Below, piece after piece: positions 4,722 to 14,303 of a DNA stretch of 14,729 nucleotides. The stretch is from NCBI GenBank assembly GCA_031280115.1, contig JAITHF010000256.1, forward strand, positions 1 to 14,729, in the 5' to 3' direction. The notes under the pieces are model-generated. The model saw nothing but the letters and a program-made list of their open reading frames with translations. It ran no database searches and was not told the DNA's origin. The translations under genes and the position numbers were made by a program. The stretch comes from Spirochaetaceae bacterium. GTDB lineage: Bacteria > Spirochaetota > Spirochaetia > Treponematales > Breznakiellaceae. Numbering within the stretch: the first letter of the stretch is position 1; the number at the start of each line of letters is the position of its first letter.

Positions 4722-6248
4722 TTATTTTTGACTGTCTTTGGCTTGGGTATCGCCGTCTGCGCCGTCTTTGCAGGGGGCCCGGCAGTTTTCAGCGAAATTG
4801 TGTTCTGAAATCTCCTGGGCCATGCCGCCGCCCTGCCCCCGGTACTTTCCCGGGCTTACCCCGATATAGTGCTTAAAGGTCTTGGAAAACCAGCTCTGGT
4901 CTTCGAAGCCGCAGGAACCGGCAATCTCGCTTAATGAAATGTCCGTTTCGGTAAGCATGCGGCTCGCCTTTTCCACCCTGATACGGTTAAGGTAGCTTGA
5001 AAGGTTTTCCCCCATCTCTTCTTTAAAGATGGTGCTGAAATAGGGCGCGGACAGGCCGGAAGCCTGGGCTATCTCCTTGAGGCTTATCTTGCGGGTATAG
5101 TTCTCCCAGATATACCGCTCGGCTTTCCGCAGCGCCGAGGCGTGGCGCACCCCGTGGAACGAGAAAATCTGGCCCGCCATGCGCTCCACGATCGTATGCA
5201 GCACGTCGGTCAGTTCCTCCACGTTCTGCGCCTTCTGGATGCGCCGCAGGTACTGGTTATTCGTTTCAAGGATGGCTTTCTCCGTGTTCCCCGGGGCCAC
5301 GTTGGTGCGGGAAAGCAGCACCACAAGCTCGATGGAGCGGAACTGGATATACTTGAACTGGTCCGGGTTGGAAAACAAGAGGATAGCAAGGAGCTCGTTG
5401 AGGATTTTCCTGCCGGTCTCGTTGTCCCCGCGCTTGAGCGCCCCAAGAAGCATCCGCTCTTTATCAAGCGGGTAATCCGGCAGCGGGGCCCCGGCAGGGT
5501 ACTGGCCCTTTAATTCCTGTATCTTCACCGAAAGGTCCGTCTGCTGCTGGGAACGGCGGCGCATGGTCCTGTAATACTCCTCGCTTCCTTGGGAGAGGGA
5601 TTTCGCCAGAATAAGCAGGAGGTCCGCAAGGGCTTTTACCCGCTCCGGGTCCCCCAGGGGGAACGGGCTTAAAAGCCGCCTGATTTCCTCAAGGGGAACG
5701 CCGCCGCCGGACATCTGGGACATCTGGGACGCGGTTTCCTCGCTGTCGATGCCCAGAAAGCCGGAGCCGATGAGGGCGCCTGCAAAGCGGTCCTCCGCGT
5801 AGAGCGGGCTTGTCCAGAACATAAAGCCCAGTTCGCACATATAGATATAGGACCCGCCGAAGTGGCTGGCTTCTTTTATGGCGTTCACGTGCATTTCCAC
5901 GCAGGGGCACTTGTTAAAATCCTGTATCTTACGCGCCTCTGTCTGGGCCCTGTGCTTCATACAGAACAGGCAGATATTCTCTTCGGTGGTAATCGCCTTA
6001 AAAACTTCCGGTATGGGCAGATAGTTGCGGTCGTGCACGCATACCGCCGCGCCGGTGGCCTTCGCGTATACTGCCAGCATCTTGTATGCTTTGAGCAGGA
6101 TAGGGTCGGTACGGCTTACGGCGTTTGGTTTAAGCTGTTTTTTATCTTTCGTATCTTCTTTCATGCTTTTCAAGTCTCTCATATTTTTTGTATCTTTTGC
6201 CTCTTCTCTCATGTCTCTCATATTTTTCATATTTTTCATATTTTCCAT
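4722..6248 (-). CDS. PocR-domain AraC-family transcriptional regulator (1)
   Basis: A 508-residue regulator. Residues about 45-215 match a PocR-type ligand-sensing domain, known from the 1,2-propanediol/cobalamin regulator PocR and common beside corrinoid methyltransferase genes. The C-terminal ~100 residues (about 373-470) are an AraC double helix-turn-helix: KAERYIWENY, SLKEIAQASGLSAPYFS, then SLSEIAGSCGFEDQSWFSK and GVSPGKYR. The sensor holds cysteines C93-x-x-C96, C114-x-C116 and C138, a possible metal or Fe-S site. The first ~40 residues are a low-complexity Lys/Met/Asp segment built from KNMRDM-like units on a 9-nt DNA repeat (about 6190-6248). No strong ribosome binding site precedes the ATG at 6248, so an internal Met (for example Met29) could be the true start. 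The 80-nt gap to the upstream paralog is AT-rich with TATATATA and might hold a promoter. The neighbours suggest it controls the corrinoid-like gene 20 nt downstream. Confidence 0.9.
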   Translation of the reverse strand: MENMKNMKNMRDMREEAKDTKNMRDLKSMKEDTKDKKQLKPNAVSRTDPILLKAYKMLAVYAKATGAAVCVHDRNYLPIPEVFKAITTEENICLFCMKHRAQTEARKIQDFNKCPCVEMHVNAIKEASHFGGSYIYMCELGFMFWTSPLYAEDRFAGALIGSGFLGIDSEETASQMSQMSGGGVPLEEIRRLLSPFPLGDPERVKALADLLLILAKSLSQGSEEYYRTMRRRSQQQTDLSVKIQELKGQYPAGAPLPDYPLDKERMLLGALKRGDNETGRKILNELLAILLFSNPDQFKYIQFRSIELVVLLSRTNVAPGNTEKAILETNNQYLRRIQKAQNVEELTDVLHTIVERMAGQIFSFHGVRHASALRKAERYIWENYTRKISLKEIAQASGLSAPYFSTIFKEEMGENLSSYLNRIRVEKASRMLTETDISLSEIAGSCGFEDQSWFSKTFKHYIGVSPGKYRGQGGGMAQEISEHNFAENCRAPCKDGADGDTQAKDSQK

Positions 6249-6328
6249 ATAGTCTGAACCTGCTTATATATACTCATAATGTACCAGATTTACGCTGCTG
6301 TATAGTAGTTTGTTGTAAACCTGCGGTC

Positions 6329-7690
6329 TTATTTTGAAATCCCCGGGGCTTCTTCCCATACCGCGCCGAGAACCCCGCCTTTTTCGCGGTATTTTCCCGG
6401 GCTTACGCCGGTATAGGTCTTGAATATCTTGGAAAACCAGCTTTGATCCTCAAAGCCGCAGGCGCAGGCGATTTGGTGTAAGGGCAAATCAGTCTCCGTC
6501 AGCATGACCGCGGCCTTTTCCGCCCGCAGGCGGTTAAGATAGCTTGAGAGGTTCTCCCGCATTTCCTCTTTAAAGATACTGCTAAAATACGACGCTGACA
6601 AACCGGAAACCCCGGCGATTTCCTGAAGGCTCAGCTTTCTGGTGTAATGCTCCCAGATATACCGCTCGGCTTTCCGCAGCGCCGAGGCGTGGCGCACCCC
6701 CTGGAACGAGAAGATGCGCGCCCCCAGCCGGTCGGTAATGGCGTACAGGCTCTCAGTAAGCTCCTCCCTGTTCCGGGCCTCTTGAATGCGCTTTATGTAC
6801 CGGTTGTTCACCTCAAGGGTTATCCGCGGCTCGCCGGCGGCGGAAAGGGCCTCCCGTGAAAGGATGACCACAAGCTCTATGGCGCGCATCTGAATAAACT
6901 CGAAATTACCCGGGCTCGTTACCATGATAGATTCCAGAATTTCCCGCAGTATTTTCCTCCCCGTGTCATAGTCGCCCCGGCGCAGGGAGGCAAGGAGCAG
7001 GCGTTCTTTATCTAAAGGGTAAACACCGGAAGGCGCGCCTTTGTTACGCGAAGCAGGGCCGCTTTTTACCGAAGGCGGCGCCAGGGCCTCGGCGCTCAAA
7101 GCGATCTGCCCGGCGCAGAACCCCATAATCTGGGCCAGAGCTTTTACCTCGTCATAGGCCCGCTCAGGAATGTCCGCAAGGTACGCCAGGGCCTCAAGCT
7201 CTGAAATCGCGCCCCGGGCCATACGGGAAAGCCTGCGCGCTGCCTCGCGCCGCTCGATATAGAGCACCCGCCCCGCAGAGAGGGCCCCGGCCATGCGCCC
7301 GCCTGCATAGATGAGGCTCACCCAATAGATAAACCCCAGGTCGCACATATAGATATAGGTGCCGCCGGTGCGGTGCGCCTCTTTCATGCTCTCGAAGTGG
7401 AGTTTCGTGCAGGGGTATTCCCCGTGCCCCCACACCCGCGCCTTGTCGGGGTAATGTTTCTTGCACAGGCCGCAAAAAAACACCGTGTCCTCATAATCCC
7501 CGATGTTTATCGAATACCCGCTTTTATCCAGCAGGGAAACCGCGCAGTCAGCGGCCTGTTTGTAGGTGCTTATCACCTCGTAAGCCTTAAAAAGGAGCGG
7601 GTCAAGCTCCCTCCGCTTTATGATATTGGAACCGGAAACCCGTTGTTCCACCAGCAGGTCTTTTACAGAATGTTGACGGCATATGTTCAT
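6329..7690 (-). CDS. PocR-domain AraC-family transcriptional regulator (2)
   Basis: A 453-residue paralog of the next gene downstream, alike along the whole length: PocR-type sensor (about 28-195), a middle helical region starting at YPLDKER (224), and an AraC DNA-binding domain (about 338-435) ending GVSPGKYR. The block FSFQGVRHASALRKAERYIWE is nearly shared with the paralog (FSFHGVRHA and onward), so the duplication is not ancient or the DNA-binding part is constrained. Four cysteines are shared in position with the paralog: C73-x-x-C76, C94 and C116; the extra Cys of the paralog's CxC pair is missing. The Lys/Met-rich N-terminal extension of the paralog is absent. The ATG at 7690 is preceded by GGAGG at a good distance. 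It is the first gene of the minus-strand cluster. Upstream on its strand, TATAAG (near 7725) is a possible -10 with a poor -35. Two related sensors in tandem suggest two ligands or a cascade. Confidence 0.92.
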   Translation of the reverse strand: MNICRQHSVKDLLVEQRVSGSNIIKRRELDPLLFKAYEVISTYKQAADCAVSLLDKSGYSINIGDYEDTVFFCGLCKKHYPDKARVWGHGEYPCTKLHFESMKEAHRTGGTYIYMCDLGFIYWVSLIYAGGRMAGALSAGRVLYIERREAARRLSRMARGAISELEALAYLADIPERAYDEVKALAQIMGFCAGQIALSAEALAPPSVKSGPASRNKGAPSGVYPLDKERLLLASLRRGDYDTGRKILREILESIMVTSPGNFEFIQMRAIELVVILSREALSAAGEPRITLEVNNRYIKRIQEARNREELTESLYAITDRLGARIFSFQGVRHASALRKAERYIWEHYTRKLSLQEIAGVSGLSASYFSSIFKEEMRENLSSYLNRLRAEKAAVMLTETDLPLHQIACACGFEDQSWFSKIFKTYTGVSPGKYREKGGVLGAVWEEAPGISK

Positions 7691-7912
7691 ACTAAGAACC
7701 TCCAGCTTTTTAAAACAGTAGCGCTTATAGAATGAACGGAATACACCCTAACGGCTAAAAAGTTTTGCCCCCGGTTAAGAAGCTCCCGGAAACGTCCGAT
7801 AACGTTCCCTGACAGGGGAAAGGCCGCGCCCCAAGGGGCCGTCCCCGGCAGCGGCGCAGGAAAGAACGCCCCCAGCGCGGCGTATTCCGGCGCCAAAACA
7901 CAACGTTTCCGG
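7691..7912. other. Non-coding upstream region of regulator 2
   Basis: Contains the ribosome binding site and probable promoter of the minus-strand regulator. The rest is GC-rich sequence with no recognisable gene. Open frames exist here on both strands but lead into the 21-bp array and show no family features. Confidence 0.35.
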
Positions 7913-8056
7913 TGAACCGGAAAGAGTTCCGCGTTACCGCGCAGGGTTTGCGCGTTACCGCGGAAGGTTTGCGCGTTACCGCGCAGGGTTTGCGCGTTAC
8001 CGCGGAAGGTTTGCGCGTACACGCGCAGGGTTTGCGCGTGAACCGGAAAAACTGTC
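7913..8056. repeat. 21-bp tandem array 1 (GC-rich, hairpin units)
   Basis: Units start at 7931, 7952, 7973, 7994, 8015 and 8036, with a degenerate partial unit at 7913-7930. Each full unit is GCGTTACCGCG followed by CAGGGTTTGC or GAAGGTTTGC, and the two versions alternate, giving a 42-bp higher period. At unit junctions the DNA is self-complementary: GCGCG-TTAC-CGCGC. In the unit at 8015 the loop is TACA instead of TTAC while the arms stay perfect. Because 21 is divisible by 3, heptapeptide repeats are open in several frames on both strands; none looks like a real protein. Confidence 0.9.
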
Positions 8057-8217
8057 CTGCCCCTGCATAAATCATTAGTATATAAAGACTTACCGGCGCT
8101 GCGCGCCTCTTGAAGAGAATTTGGAGAGATCTTTTATATGCACTTCATGGTTTGCGGCTCATAGCGCAAACAACGACTATTGAAACAGCCGGAGGCTGTC
8201 GGCGCTTCGCGCCTCTT
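8050..8217. repeat. Array-flanking direct repeat, copy L1
   Basis: About 168 nt beginning AACTGTCCTGCCCC and running through TGCATAAATCATT, CGGCGCT...CGCGCCTCTT, TTTGCGGCTCATAG, the palindrome CAGCC-GGA-GGCTG (8186-8198) and a second CGCGCCTCTT. It is clearly homologous to 8583-8751 at almost equal length. It starts inside the last unit of array 1, just as copy L2 starts inside the last unit of array 2. Confidence 0.85.
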
Positions 8218-8291
8218 TTAAGAGTTTTTGGGGGCTCTTTTATCAGCGCTTCCTGTTTCGCGTCTTCTTTTGCAAACTCCGCGTAAGGGAA

Positions 8292-8440
8292 CAGCCTCCG
8301 GCTGCCCCCAAACCCCCACCCAACGGCTTCCTGCTATGAGCCGCTAACGCTTTCAAAGCGCGGTGAGGCGCCGCTTCGGGGTTGTGACTAAAATTGCAAA
8401 CCTCTCGCCGCAAGAAGCACCTGAACCCCCCGCAGGGGGC
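8292..8440 (+). repeat. Dispersed structured repeat, copy B (plus orientation)
   Basis: Starts with palindrome CAGCC-TCC-GGCTG (8292-8304), then CCCCCAAACCCCC and GGCTTCCTGC. The core GGTTGTGACTAAA is at 8380-8392, followed by GCAAACCTCTCGCCGC and AAGAAGCACCTGAA, ending in a C/G-run hairpin (8426-8439). A truncated restart of the family (CTTCCTGCGCTGCGC) follows at 8440-8454. Confidence 0.8.
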
Positions 8441-8492
8441 TTCCTGCGCTGCGCCCTTCCGCCTGCGGCCCCGGCAGGCGTTTTGTTGGATT

Positions 8493-8591
8493 AAGAAAAC
8501 TTATTTTGACTACAAACAAACTTATTTTGACTACAAACAAACTTTCTTTGACTACAAAAAAACCTTTCTTGACTACAAAATAAACTATCCT
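8493..8591. repeat. 21-bp tandem array 2 (AT-rich)
   Basis: Units start at 8508, 8529, 8550 and 8571, after a partial unit at 8493-8507. Each begins GACTACAAA and continues with A-rich then T-rich sequence. The period is the same 21 bp as array 1 but the sequence is unrelated, and no hairpin arms occur. On the plus strand a frame with heptads like TYFDYKQ is open and ends PAPA-stop at 8601-8603, the equivalent position to the stop at 8068-8070 after array 1. On the minus strand each unit carries an in-frame TAG. Coding is not supported. Confidence 0.9.
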
Positions 8592-8751
8592 GCCCCCGCA
8601 TAAATCATTGTTTTATAACGACTTATCGGCGCTTCGCGCCTCTTTGAAGAGTTTTTGGGTGGCTTTTTTACCGGCGCTTCCTGTTTTGCGGCTCATAGTG
8701 CAAACGACGACTGCTGAAACAGCCGGAGGCTGTCGGCGCTCCGCGCCTCTT
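8583..8751. repeat. Array-flanking direct repeat, copy L2
   Basis: Homolog of 8050-8217, offset by about 533 bp. It has AACTATCCTGCCCC, GCATAAATCATT, CGGCGCTTCGCGCCTCTT, TTTTGCGGCTCATAG, palindrome CAGCC-GGA-GGCTG (8720-8732) and CGCGCCTCTT. The middle differs most, matching the 8220-8270 stretch better than L1 there, so the blocks are mosaic. Confidence 0.85.
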
Positions 8752-8910
8752 GAAGAGAATTTGGAGGGTCATAGCCCCTCCAAACCACCCACTAATGCTT
8801 CCTGCGCTGCGCTCTTTCGCTCTCGAAGCGCGCTGAGGCGCCGCTTCGGGGTTGTGACTAAAATTGCGAACCCGCTCGCCGCAGGAAGCACGTAAAACAG
8901 CCTCCGGCTG
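8745..8910 (+). repeat. Dispersed structured repeat, copy C (plus orientation)
   Basis: Begins with AGAGAATTTGGAGGG and a hairpin GGAGGG...CCCTCC, then AATGCTTCCTGCGCTGCGC. The core GGTTGTGACTAAA is at 8850-8862, followed by GCGAACCCGCTCGCCGC and AGGAAGCACGTAAA, with palindrome CAGCC-TCC-GGCTG at 8898-8910. Confidence 0.8.
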
Positions 8911-8977
8911 CCCGCAGGGGGTGACTAAAATTGCAAACCCTCTCGCCGCAAGAAGCACCTGAAACAGCCGGAGGCTG
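8911..8977 (+). repeat. Dispersed structured repeat, copy D (partial, plus)
   Basis: A 5'-truncated copy directly after copy C. It has GTGACTAAAATTGCAAACCC, CTCGCCGCAAGAAGCACC and palindrome CAGCC-GGA-GGCTG (8965-8977). The probable nik promoter starts immediately after it. Confidence 0.75.
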
Positions 8978-9006
8978 TGGACATTATTTTTTTTGTGTGC
9001 TATGGT
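8978..9006 (+). promoter_or_regulatory. Possible nik operon promoter
   Basis: TGGACA (8978-8983) and TATGGT (9001-9006) are spaced by 17 nt, matching consensus at 5 and 4 of 6 positions. The leader to nikA would be about 180 nt. No NikR-like operator was recognised. Confidence 0.35.
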
Positions 9007-9119
9007 GTGGAAAACGCGGCTTGAAAGCGGCGTTTTGTAAAATGCCTCCATACTCGACTCATAAAGTGCCATGAAGGTACGCTGTTGCGGAAGAAGCCGC
9101 GCGCGGATATGTCATGGCA

Positions 9120-9156
9120 TTTTTATTTTTTATTTTTTTATTTTTTTATTTTTTTA
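9120..9156 (+). repeat. Poly-T/A simple-sequence tract in the nikA leader
   Basis: Five consecutive runs T5A, T6A, T7A, T7A and T7A. Such tracts are prone to replication slippage and bend DNA. It lies between the predicted promoter and the ribosome binding site. Confidence 0.85.
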
Positions 9157-9157
9157 T

Positions 9158-9181
9158 AAGCCGGCCCCGCAGGGCCGGCTT
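9158..9181 (+). promoter_or_regulatory. GC hairpin abutting the nikA ribosome binding site
   Basis: AAGCCGGCCC (9158-9167), loop CGCA, GGGCCGGCTT (9172-9181) form a perfect 10-bp stem ending 1 nt before the ribosome binding site GGAGG (9183-9187). Reading forward there is no T-run after it. The long T tract lies on the 5' side, so it would be terminator-like only for minus-strand transcripts. It may affect nikA translation or mRNA stability. Confidence 0.5.
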
Positions 9182-9193
9182 TGGAGGACATTT

Positions 9194-11752: not shown

Positions 11753-12686
11753 TTCTGACGCCCTTATAGAAAAAATAGAAAAAACAGAAAAAACAGAAAA
11801 AACAGGAAAAACAGGAAAAGAGGCGGCGCCGCAACAAAAAATGATAAGGCGCCTTTTCTCAAGGCGGCGGGCGCCGCTCCTCCTCTCAGGGGCGGTGCTG
11901 GCGGTATTGCTCGCAGCAGCCCTTGCGGCGCCGCTTATCGCGCCCTACGACCCGTTAGCCATTGACGTACAGAGCCGCCTTACCGGCCCAAGCCCTGAGC
12001 ATTGGCTGGGGCAGGATCATCTGGGGCGGGATATATTCTCCCGCCTTATCTGGGGCGCCCGCTCTTCCCTCGGGTCCGTGTTTGCCATCGCGGTTTTGAT
12101 TATGGCGGCAGGCTTTACCTTAGGCGGCATCTCCGGCTTTGCAGGCGGCTGGGTTGATACGGTGATTATGCGGGCCTGCGAGGCGTTTATGACCTTCCCC
12201 ACGTTCATCCTTGCGCTCTTTCTCATCGGGGTCTTCGGAACCGGCATGGCCAACGTGGTGCTTGCCATTGTGCTGACCCATTGGGCATGGTACGCCCGCA
12301 TTATACGGGGCATGGTGCTGCACCTGAAACACCGGGACTATATCTTGGCCGCCCGTGCCGGCGGCGGAAGCGCCTTCGCCATCTTCCTCCGCCATATCGC
12401 CCTGCCGGTATGCTCCCAGCTGGTCATTCTGGCCACCCTTGACCTCGGCCACATGATGCTCCACGTGTCGGGCCTCTCGTTTCTGGGGCTGGGCATTCAG
12501 CCCCCGTCGCCTGAGTGGGGGTGCATGATAAACGACGCCCGCCAGCACATCTGGACAAACCCGGAACAGGCAATACTCCCGGGGTGCATGATATTTCTTA
12601 CCGTGCTGGCCTGCAATATCCCCGGAGATTACCTGCGGAACAAACTCGATCCGGCAATCATGGCCGGAGAAGGAGGCGGCGCATGA
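11745..12686 (+). CDS. nikC: Nickel ABC importer permease, NikC-type
   Basis: A 313-residue permease of the DppC/OppC family, partner of NikB. The start at 11745 follows AGGAGG (11731-11736) by 8 nt. Visible are LGQDHLGRDIFSRLIWGAR (88-106), which is typical of the family, the EAA-type loop LAARAGGGSAFAIFLRHIAL (201-220), and SFLGLGIQPPSPEWG (245-259). It is longer than E. coli NikC (277 residues) because of a charged cytoplasmic N-terminus, EKIEKTEKTEKTGKTGKE (9-26), encoded by a 9-nt A-rich repeat at about 11768-11822. This extension could change length by slippage without shifting frame. The stop overlaps the nikD start as ATGA. Confidence 0.9.
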   Translation: MADSDALIEKIEKTEKTEKTGKTGKEAAPQQKMIRRLFSRRRAPLLLSGAVLAVLLAAALAAPLIAPYDPLAIDVQSRLTGPSPEHWLGQDHLGRDIFSRLIWGARSSLGSVFAIAVLIMAAGFTLGGISGFAGGWVDTVIMRACEAFMTFPTFILALFLIGVFGTGMANVVLAIVLTHWAWYARIIRGMVLHLKHRDYILAARAGGGSAFAIFLRHIALPVCSQLVILATLDLGHMMLHVSGLSFLGLGIQPPSPEWGCMINDARQHIWTNPEQAILPGCMIFLTVLACNIPGDYLRNKLDPAIMAGEGGGA

Positions 12687-13537
12687 GCGGCGAAACCGAA
12701 AACGCCCTTGAAATACAGGGCCTCACGGTGGCGGCGGCGTCATCGGGAAAGGTTCTGGTGGACAACCTTTCGTTCTCCCTTAGGTACGGCGGGATAACCG
12801 CGCTTGTGGGGGAGTCAGGCTGCGGGAAAACCATGACCGCCGCCGCGATAATGGGCCTCCTGCCTGCGGGGACCGTCAAACGCGCCGGCTCGATTAGTAT
12901 CGGCGGCACGGACACGGCGTCCCTCAGCGCCGAAGCGTACCGGCAGATGCGGAACACCGCCGTAAGCGTGGTTATGCAGAATCCTATGAGCGCGTTTGAT
13001 CCGGTGCTGACCATAGACACGCACTTTTGGGAAACCTTGGCGTCCCACGGGTTCAAGAACAGGCGCCGCGCCCGGGAGCAGGCGGCAGAGAGCCTGTCGC
13101 AGGCGGGCTTCCCTGACCCAAAGACTATTCTTGACCTCTACCCGTTCCAGATGTCAGGGGGTATGCTCCAGCGGGTTATGCTGGCGGTTGCCCTCTTCTC
13201 CCGTCCGGCGCTGGTTATCGCTGACGAGGCCACCACCGACCTTGACGTGGTTTCTCAGGCAAAGATACTTGACCTCCTGCGGGAACACTGCAAAGACCGG
13301 GCTATGCTCCTTATTACCCACGATTTCAGCGTGGCAAAGTATCTGGCGCAGGAAATTATCCTTATGAAAAACGGCGCCCTTGTGGAACGGCAGGAGGCCG
13401 GCGGTTTTTTCACGTCCCCCCAATCAGGCTACGCGAAACAGCTCTTGGCCTGCCACCAAAGCCTGTATACCAGCCGGTTCAAGAAGATGCTTGCGGTTAT
13501 AAAAGATCACGAAAGGGGAGCCCATGAACCTGCTTGA
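12683..13537 (+). CDS. nikD: Nickel ABC importer ATPase, NikD-type
   Basis: A 284-residue ABC ATPase. The start at 12683 is chosen over longer open-frame starts because it forms an ATGA overlap with nikC and has AGGAGG 6 nt upstream; the long upstream extension is nikC sequence in another frame. Complete motifs are Walker A GESGCGKT (43-50), Q-loop Gln99 in [11 protein letters not shown], signature MSGGMLQR (157-164), Walker B with D181-E182, and H-loop His213. The GMLQR signature and [11 protein letters not shown]-loop match E. coli NikD (GMLQR, DEPTTDLDVV) more than generic Opp/Dpp ATPases. It should pair with NikE as a heterodimer powering Ni2+ uptake. The usual Pro after the catalytic Glu is Ala here. 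Confidence 0.9.
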
Positions 13538-14303
13538 GTTACGGGACGTTACCAAGACCTACCGGCGCGGGAAGCTCTTGAGTTCCAGCGCCGCGACGCA
13601 GGTGTTAAACGGCGTGAATCTCGTTATTAAGGCCGGAACCTGCGTGGGCCTTTTAGGGGAGTCAGGCTGCGGGAAAAGCACTGCCGGACGCATCATAACC
13701 GGCCTTGAGCGCCCCACGTCGGGAGCCGTGCAGTATTGCGGCGAGGATTTGAAGGGCATGGGCAAAGAAAAACGCCGGCTCTACCGGCGGAATTGCCAGG
13801 TAGTGTTCCAGAACGCCCTTGGCGCGGTCAACCCCCGCTGGCGGGCGTGGGAGGTTATCGGGGAGCCGCTCTCGTATTTCGAGAAGCTCCCGCGGGAGGC
13901 CCTGCGGGACAAGGCCCGCGCGCTTTTAGCCCGGGTCGGGCTTGAGGAAAACAGCCTTGACAAGCTGCCGTCCTAGTTTTCAGGCGGGGAGCTCCAGCGG
14001 GTCTGCATTGCCCGCGCCCTGTCCCTTACGCCGCAGTTTATTTTGCTTGACGAAGCGGTGAGCGCCCTTGATATGTCCAATCAAAGCCTTATTCTTGACC
14101 TTATTACGAACCTCAAGCGGGAGTCCGGCGCGGCGTTTCTGTTTATTTCCCATGATGTGCGGGTGCTCTTGAAAACCGCCGATTCCCTTGCGGTTATGGA
14201 GCGCGGACGGATTGCCTTCTTTGAGCCGGACATAACAGCGCTGGACCGGGACGGCGCGGTCTACGGCGGGGCATTGACACAGCTTGCCCGGGCCGCCCTC
14301 TAA
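13524..14303 (+). pseudogene. nikE: Nickel ABC importer ATPase NikE-type, interrupted by in-frame TAG
   Basis: A 260-codon frame encodes a full-length NikE-type ABC ATPase but carries a TAG at 13974-13976 (codon 151). Before it are Walker A GESGCGKST (45-53) and Q-loop Gln96. After it, in the same frame, come signature FSGGELQR (152-159), Walker B with D176-E177 in DEAVSALD, and H-loop His210. The DEAVS motif is NikE-like. The stop replaces the residue just before the signature, which is commonly Gln, so one C-to-T change (CAG to TAG) explains it. No frameshift or other damage is visible, and the gene ends with TAA. The start has GGGGAG close upstream and overlaps nikD by 14 nt. If translation stops, the 150-residue product cannot hydrolyse ATP. 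A sequencing error, a very recent mutation or nonsense suppression are the options. Other genes here (symporter, CobW-like, nikA) use TAG as normal stop. Confidence 0.88.

Follow-up and report, generated by a model that had tools for sequence, protein, structure and literature searches.

In one genome of the Spirochaetaceae, short intergenic elements carry tandem arrays in which, as the comparison of the copies suggests, the spacing and the symmetry of the units are kept and not their letters. The period of these arrays is locked at 21 bp, the inverted repeats of the units covary in the arrays linked to a common flank and exceed chance in other species, the sequence is free and the place is mostly intergenic. 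The preferred reading, held at a probability somewhat below one half (about 0.45), is that these are BOX-like intergenic elements with iteron-like arrays, the 21 bp of which would be held by the same-face binding of one or more putative dimeric proteins. The surprise is the sequence-free, period-locked design.

Two element copies in one intergenic gap

The window, i.e., the whole stretch of DNA that was analysed (14,729 nucleotides), contains both 21-bp arrays in a 1.5-kb gap between two of its genes (Table 1). The claim, made from the letters alone, that two such arrays are joined to one flank of about 168 bp was confirmed by TRF, which reported period 21 at 7930-8039 (there also as 42, or 2 x 21) and at 8497-8579, by repeat finding, in which the 21-bp register of array 1 extended from 7906 up to the flank edge (8050) and that of array 2 from 8476/8497 up to 8583, and by the alignment of L1 (8050-8217) with L2 (8583-8751) at 84% along the whole length (E 2e-46). 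The lag identity over 42 nt in 7690-9190 had its maximum, 0.93, at lag 21, against a top value of 0.64 at any lag of 10-40 in 300 dinucleotide shuffles submitted to the same test.

The gap consists of two adjacent copies of one short palindrome-rich intergenic element type, with no gene seen inside, since the tails that follow L1 and L2 have further small repeats in common; thus, 8818-8872 matches 8348-8402 at 93%. The left ends are unlike, array 2 beginning at the C edge and array 1 without it, and C-like edges lie left of arrays also at the loci L007, L012 and L016. The boundary units of array 1 contain CCGG-TGAA-CCGG, and the last unit of array 2 ends in CAAAATA, which is common to many copies. 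The two arrays had been described as sharing no evident sequence; this stands letter by letter, with 7 of 21 positions agreeing in register by consensus count, but not for the layout and the register to the flank, which are the same (GCGCG-TTAC-CGCGC and TTTTG-ACTA-CAAAC, each with a spacer).

Table 1. Features of the gap and its two neighbouring genes (positions in the window).
Feature	Position	Strand	Description	Basis
Left neighbour	6329-7690	minus	PocR/AraC-type regulator gene	
Array 1	7906..8049	+	about 7 units of 21 bp, GC-rich; consensus GGTTTGCGCGTTACCGCGGAA in register to the edge	
Flank L1	8050..8217	+	L edge AACTGTCCTGCCCC..ATAAATCATT, then GGCGC-TGC-GCGCC and more small palindromes	genome matches, edge alignments
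Element 1 tail	8218..8438	+	mosaic of small repeats (AACAGCCTCCGGCTG, GTGACTAAAATTGC, others)	repeat families D3, D6, D8
C edge (third edge type)	8439..8485	+	GCTTCCTGCGCTGCGCCCTTCCGCCTGCGG..GGCGTTTTGT; left boundary of array 2, runs into GGCGTTTTGTTG	
Array 2	8486..8582	+	4-5 units of 21 bp, AT-rich, TTTTG-ACTA-CAAAC type	
Flank L2	8583..8751	+	84% identity to L1	
Element 2 tail	8752..8977	+	small repeats partly common with 8218-8438	
Right neighbour	from 9194	plus	solute-binding-protein gene, first of a transport operon	

Among the eight window proteins, Pfam recognised an SDF symporter, cobW, a B12-binding protein, two PocR/AraC regulators, SBP_bac_5 and an ABC ATPase, and one protein was without a match. 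The two regulator genes (4722-6248 and 6329-7690), both of PocR + AraC-type architecture and alike by eye, are probably a tandem duplication. The last ABC-transporter ATPase of the operon is represented by two successive ORFs (13524-13976 and 14043-14303), as if interrupted, by an assembly error or by decay. A predicted lipoprotein-like protein at 192-1742, with no Pfam match, contains an internal duplication by eye, and the coding sequences of two proteins contain 9-bp repeats at the N-terminal end (11768-11819 and 6218-6250; EKTEKTEKTGKTGK and MENMKNMKNMRDM).

Copies of the flank and their genomic place

The flank is a repeated module, as had been supposed, with at least 56 matches in the own genome (G000, a 1.84-Mb MAG of 301 contigs with a completeness of 62%), the best 40 of 440 first-look candidates having been scored. 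With L2 as the query, at least 4 of 58 genomes match, the own included (G000, G003, G005 and G006; the best 14 or fewer candidates scored per genome), and among the matches listed the main other holder of the flank is the sister species G003. The latter and JAITHR01 ('Spirochaetaceae bacterium Pc512_bin84') were taken as one assembly because of the same arrays in both (L053 = L067, L057 = L071). The JAITHR01 (Pc512) series originates presumably from the termite gut, and Breznakiellaceae is the name that we take to be that of the family of this group.

The edge copies, deduplicated by the 25 bases that precede the edge on its left, come mostly from G000, with some from G003/JAITHR01 and G005. 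After the exclusion of 2 of the 61 L-edge rows as too short, 45 of the 59 readable copies adjoin a tandem array, every one of period 21, and the unit sequences vary between copies, which upholds the idea of an exchangeable or variable array at a fixed flank. Flank copies lacking 21-bp arrays, an outcome named beforehand as one that would speak against the association, were found in part, namely 14 of the 59 at the threshold used, 5 of which still have a single in-register dyad unit that pairs at 4 or more of the 5 arm positions. Of the 24 rows of the R edge (AAAACCGGTTTTCCTGCCG..), 23 adjoin a period-21 array; one row (L021) is actually an L-like edge. Both edges are present on single arrays, e.g., L018, L029 and L079, and in the complete element (L018, L029) the array lies between the R edge and the L edge, with outer repeats on either side. 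The outer sides hold inverted copies of one another, that is, terminal inverted repeats such as define MITEs: 1088-1207 against 1651-1770 in L018 (120 nt, 82% complementary) and three arm pairs of 32-38 nt (71-89%) in L029. A pattern scan of genome contigs gave nine loci, two from JAITHR01 with arrays and seven from other bacteria without a period-21 array, which were taken as chance matches.

By hexamer-model gene calls, the arrays are mostly intergenic, with 3 of 56 array groups overlapping a called ORF. At L029 of G000, an element occupies about 640 bp between a gene starting at or slightly below 1130 and a permease-like gene whose 3' end is at 1771. For the permease-like ortholog in G003 (L134, 9609-10586), the distance from the 3' end to the next gene, a different one, is 72 bp, and no element is present. 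This presence/absence beside one shared gene fits the mobile or duplicating element of the sequence-only reading, in a comparison that is one-sided, the other neighbour being different, and in which rearrangement is a possible alternative to insertion. Beside another shared gene the arrays of G000 and G003 differ in sequence, and at a third place the element of G003 corresponds to a remnant in G000. These orthologous loci were compared within the retrieved stretches, where 21 of 112 G003 genes had a match of at least 60%.

Accordingly placed, the arrays might be selfish or neutral minisatellites in MITE-like elements, of a unit length inherited from a founder, with slippage lengthening and shortening the arrays, with a mutational mechanism (one hairpin arm as the template of the other) preserving the inverted repeats, and without a cellular function. 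This account is possible, although doubtful; the almost wholly intergenic place, the presence/absence between species, the stepwise similarity of many flank-linked units and the 28 two-sided changes of arms inside arrays, including 10 paired ones, speak in its favour, and the constancy of the unit length, described below, speaks against it.

One gene for a Y1 transposase (PF01797) is found in each of the array-rich genomes, G000 and G003, with relatives more numerous in the array-poor G001, G004 and G005 and absent from two other species. In the stretches inspected, the flanks of the Y1 gene in G000 and G003 had no such repeats by eye, and a link of the elements to this transposase has no clear support. 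The gene of G000 (IS200-like) lies at L198 1471-1917 on contig C283, near the contig end and, by eye, divergent from a trpD-like gene; the single relative of G003 lies on contig C185. Carriage by a phage, a plasmid or a virus was rejected, there being no match (in one search by exact pattern only).

By the hexamer-model gene calls, the gene ends that face arrays in contigs C1-C40 of the own genome are 26 3' ends to 9, compared with 51 to 69 when all ends at gaps no shorter than 100 bp are counted; the corresponding numbers are 11 to 7 in G003 (all ends 30 to 22) and 17 to 23 at the flank-linked loci. A role as a terminator of convergent genes was rejected, as the 3' bias of the own C1-C40 is absent from G003 and from the flank-linked loci. 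Terminator-like hairpins in the window gap number 7, versus 3.5 (sd 2.4) in shuffles. The same bias of the own contigs would agree with a DNA structure independent of protein, in which the dyads extrude hairpins or bend the DNA and serve as supercoil sinks or boundaries between genes. The folding of single-stranded DNA also points that way: for both strands of both window arrays it is better than the dinucleotide-shuffle mean (z -2.05 to -7.70), one strand being equalled by 5 of 200 shuffles and three strands by none. However, such a structure is an improbable cause, because the 3' bias is not found in G003 or at the flank-linked loci, a bend due to A-tracts cannot be common to GC-rich and AT-rich arrays, and stable cruciforms need longer stems than the ones here of about 5 bp, some of which consist of A-T pairs only.

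The 21-bp step and the dyad of the unit

In the own genome, contigs C1-C40 (228 kb) contain 42 tandem arrays at lags 10-40, and 35 of these have period 21; some contig ends are near-identical (L105, L106), so that the 35 arrays are partly non-independent. In G003, contigs C1-C20 (119 kb) contain 25, and 21 of these have period 21. Both sets of contigs were chosen by number and not by content, and arrays explained by periods 1-9 were excluded from the census. Periods 18 and 24 were absent from both samples. In the samples of the other species, period 21 was found in 4 of 5 (G001), 4 of 8 (G004), 1 of 3 (G005) and 0 of 4 arrays (G006), and in 18 other genera, by one contig each, in 2 of 7; there was no period-21 array in 84 kb of G002 or in 40 kb of two more genomes. 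An L, R or C edge is present at 22 of the 35 own arrays, 12 others lie at a contig end without an edge, and 1 is without any. In the G003 sample, all three edges are missing from each of 20 arrays, of which 15 are readable on both sides; flank-linked arrays of G003, few in number (L053, L057), exist outside this sample. The flank is, therefore, not the cause of period 21, which prevails in the G003 arrays without any recognised edge, and the proposal that the flank accounts for the array is not supported.

Among the steps of 20-22 bp reported by a detector open to lags of 14-30, those of exactly 21 bp number 393 of 398 in G000 and 127 of 127 in G003, or 520 of 525 overall, which is the two-helical-turn spacing of direct repeats that characterises iterons; 17 other steps, 14-18 or 29-30 bp long (13 in G000, 4 in G003), stand outside the 525. 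Between neighbouring units of an array, 5 length changes were counted versus 1428 substitutions, which are non-independent events, whereas 78 flank matches contain 80 gap openings versus 1000 mismatches; per substitution, length change is about 20 times rarer in the arrays than in the flank. An inherited unit length would account for the place and the turnover of neutral minisatellites but not for this near lack of length change, the more so as the flank copies differ by many gaps and period 21 recurs in arrays of other sequence without a recognised flank.

The flank-linked unit consists of a 14-bp inverted repeat (5-bp arms and a 4-bp centre, with G-N4-C) and a 7-bp spacer with AA[GC]TT. Its register was set from the L edge and not from the symmetry, and 29 non-redundant consensuses of 42 were used. 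Over 210 column pairs, the top Watson-Crick excess above column shuffles fell on (9,16), (8,17), (7,18) and (10,15), followed by the off-axis (8,9) as the fifth and by (11,14) as the sixth pair, so that all of the six but (8,9) lie on one axis. The summed excess is 1.51 on the dyad axis against 0.43 on the next one for the L-edge arrays, and 1.55 against 0.47 for 17 R-edge arrays; letter and column shuffles ignore relatedness, whereas this axis control keeps it, for the flank-linked arrays only. The arm letters thus covary between arrays. Conservation is highest at G10 and C15, which enclose the free four-base centre, and at A21, A1, T4 and T3 in the spacer.

The sequence of the unit varies far more between copies than that of the flanks, but the units are constant in their 21-bp step and in the layout of their inverted repeats; 125 arrays fall into 46 unit clusters (at most 5 mismatches of 21), the inner module not being conserved between copies. 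Blocks of unlike unit types succeed each other within one array with the register intact (L103, L036). The arm changes within arrays are mainly one-sided (185 versus the 28 two-sided ones) and not copied to both arms together, which again counts against the neutral minisatellites with templating arms. In G003, the axis pairs of 19 unit clusters are above all 300 shuffles, by a modest difference (5.89 vs 5.27), and those of 12 clusters from five other species are above shuffles too, 1 of 300 reaching them. For own arrays without a recognised edge (11 arrays in 5 clusters, from 9 of 13 such places, L105 and L106 not being in the sample), the symmetry was not significant, 77 and 194 of 300 shuffles reaching it, and the dyad as a universal feature was rejected, these arrays not exceeding shuffles. 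Units of 7-bp arms around a 7-base centre were seen in G003 at L118 1-149 and L134 7405-7715 (GGCGTTT-AGCCTTC-AAACGCC; GAATTTC-CAGGACA-GAAATTC); such 7+7+7 units are an alternative way of filling 21 bp with a dyad.

Dyad symmetry and covariation would also be expected if the arrays were transcribed and acted as RNA, in the form of a string of small hairpins. On the AACTT strand, G-T exceeds A-C mismatches over five pairs (58 vs 34) in 32 of 41 arrays oriented by the spacer, the 9 arrays of ambiguous spacer direction being omitted. However, taken per array, the wobble excess is not significant (equalled by 1411 of 10000 sign flips); it shrinks to 35 vs 26 in the four pairs that covary (5272 of 10000), and the count in the flank orientation is 58 G-T vs 54 A-C. 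Rfam returned 0 matches at the gathering threshold for 10 sources, no promoter-like site was seen within the window arrays, and period 21 would need a separate cause, so that a role as RNA seems very improbable.

Still less credible is a set of genes for heptapeptide repeats, with 21 nt as 7 codons, which had been proposed among the possible functions of the arrays. The divisibility of 21 by 3 and the lack of one-base length changes fit a reading frame, the open frames per consensus unit are 4.69 versus 4.12 in shuffled units, and at least one frame is open across 73 of 74 arrays, an uninformative count that short repeats readily produce. A precedent exists in the large BOX elements of pneumococci, which can give rise to expressed ORFs according to the part of PMC3049150 used here. 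A coding frame would account for the absence of one-base length changes but not for the missing codon phase or the covariation: the variation within flank-linked arrays is without codon phase (0.102, 0.116, 0.116; 4435 of 5000 permutations as large) and lends the peptide idea no support, and the dyad covariation is left unexplained. Moreover, periods 18 and 24 are lacking in the own C1-C40 and the G003 C1-C20, and the ORF ends near arrays vary by array.

Likeness to known systems and the preferred reading

By layout alone, the elements resemble the BOX elements, described in the relevant part of PMC3049150 as boxA-boxB(n)-boxC with boxB treated as one module family: both have two conserved end modules, a variable number of tandem inner modules, a predicted fold and a variable copy number. 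They differ from BOX, as presented in that part of the source, in an inner unit of 21 bp whose sequence is free between copies while period and dyad are kept, and in the outer sides, which contain mutual inverted copies. BOX-type composites keep the sequence of the inner unit; here, length and symmetry persist even between arrays that have hardly any sequence in common, or none, and the constraint should, therefore, be one of DNA geometry or of some process of measurement. The implication would be either that these spirochaetes possess a class of silencing system or chromosomal DNA-protein filament or that an unknown process makes repeats of fixed length.

The iterons of plasmids are direct repeats of about 17-22 bp at two-helical-turn spacing, on which Rep proteins bind cooperatively along one face of the DNA, and they belong to a replicon. 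The arrays are like iterons in being direct repeats at such a spacing and unlike them in occupying very many loci with different sequence, in the inverted repeats of the units and in the lack of a replication protein among the eight window proteins by Pfam; the window gave no plasmid match. The REP/BIME elements, connected with RAYT transposases, are palindromic, intergenic and present in many copies. Palindromic intergenic multicopy repeats and one Y1 transposase gene per array-rich genome recall them, but the Y1 gene is here, in the stretches inspected, without adjoining repeats by eye and its relatives are commoner in the array-poor G001, G004 and G005.

In the preferred reading of BOX-like elements with iteron-like arrays, the array would work as DNA, each inverted repeat being the candidate site of a protein that binds DNA as a symmetric dimer. 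With 10.5 bp per turn, no whole number of base pairs below 21 completes full turns, and the 21-bp lock suggests helical geometry: a step of 2 x 10.5 bp would place all sites on one face of the helix, where neighbouring dimers could touch, as in plasmid iterons. The drift of an arm may be tolerated if the opposite arm, or the partner protein, follows; the copy number and the blocks would shift through slippage or recombination between arrays, and the elements would spread among intergenic regions. One sequence-specific protein could not read every array, and many partners or the reading of shape must be assumed. A search limited to PF01797 gave no candidate for an array-binding protein. Of the three functional ideas of the sequence-only reading, the DNA-protein scaffold is the best.

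A wider version appears unlikely: a lineage-wide satellite system in which the architecture (the 21-bp step and the dyad) is selected and the sequence is free, with fast turnover, each array type having, or having once had, a fast-evolving partner protein of its own or all of them one reader of shape and spacing. If true, it would be a bacterial counterpart of the fast-evolving repeats that are chased by fast-evolving DNA-binding proteins.

The open-access literature searched contained no description of such arrays, and the word 'tandem' occurs 0 times in the main text of PMC13067680. The part of the prokaryotic satellite survey drawn on here (Subirana and Messeguer 2019, PMC6749651) has no period-21 class; it gives tandem repeats of 10-200 bp at densities up to 89 per Mb (Methanosarcina, its Table 1), against about 150 per Mb for period 21 alone in the own 228 kb, by looser criteria, with 29 of the 35 arrays spanning at least 84 bp. 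In the own C1-C40 (L075-L114), 18 of the 35 arrays lie 25 bp or less from a contig end; because of this breaking of the assembly at arrays, there are probably more of them than were counted. Three arrays of period 23 were also seen, at L186 99-286 (G004) and L161 121-196 (G013), those of L186 being dyad-like by eye.
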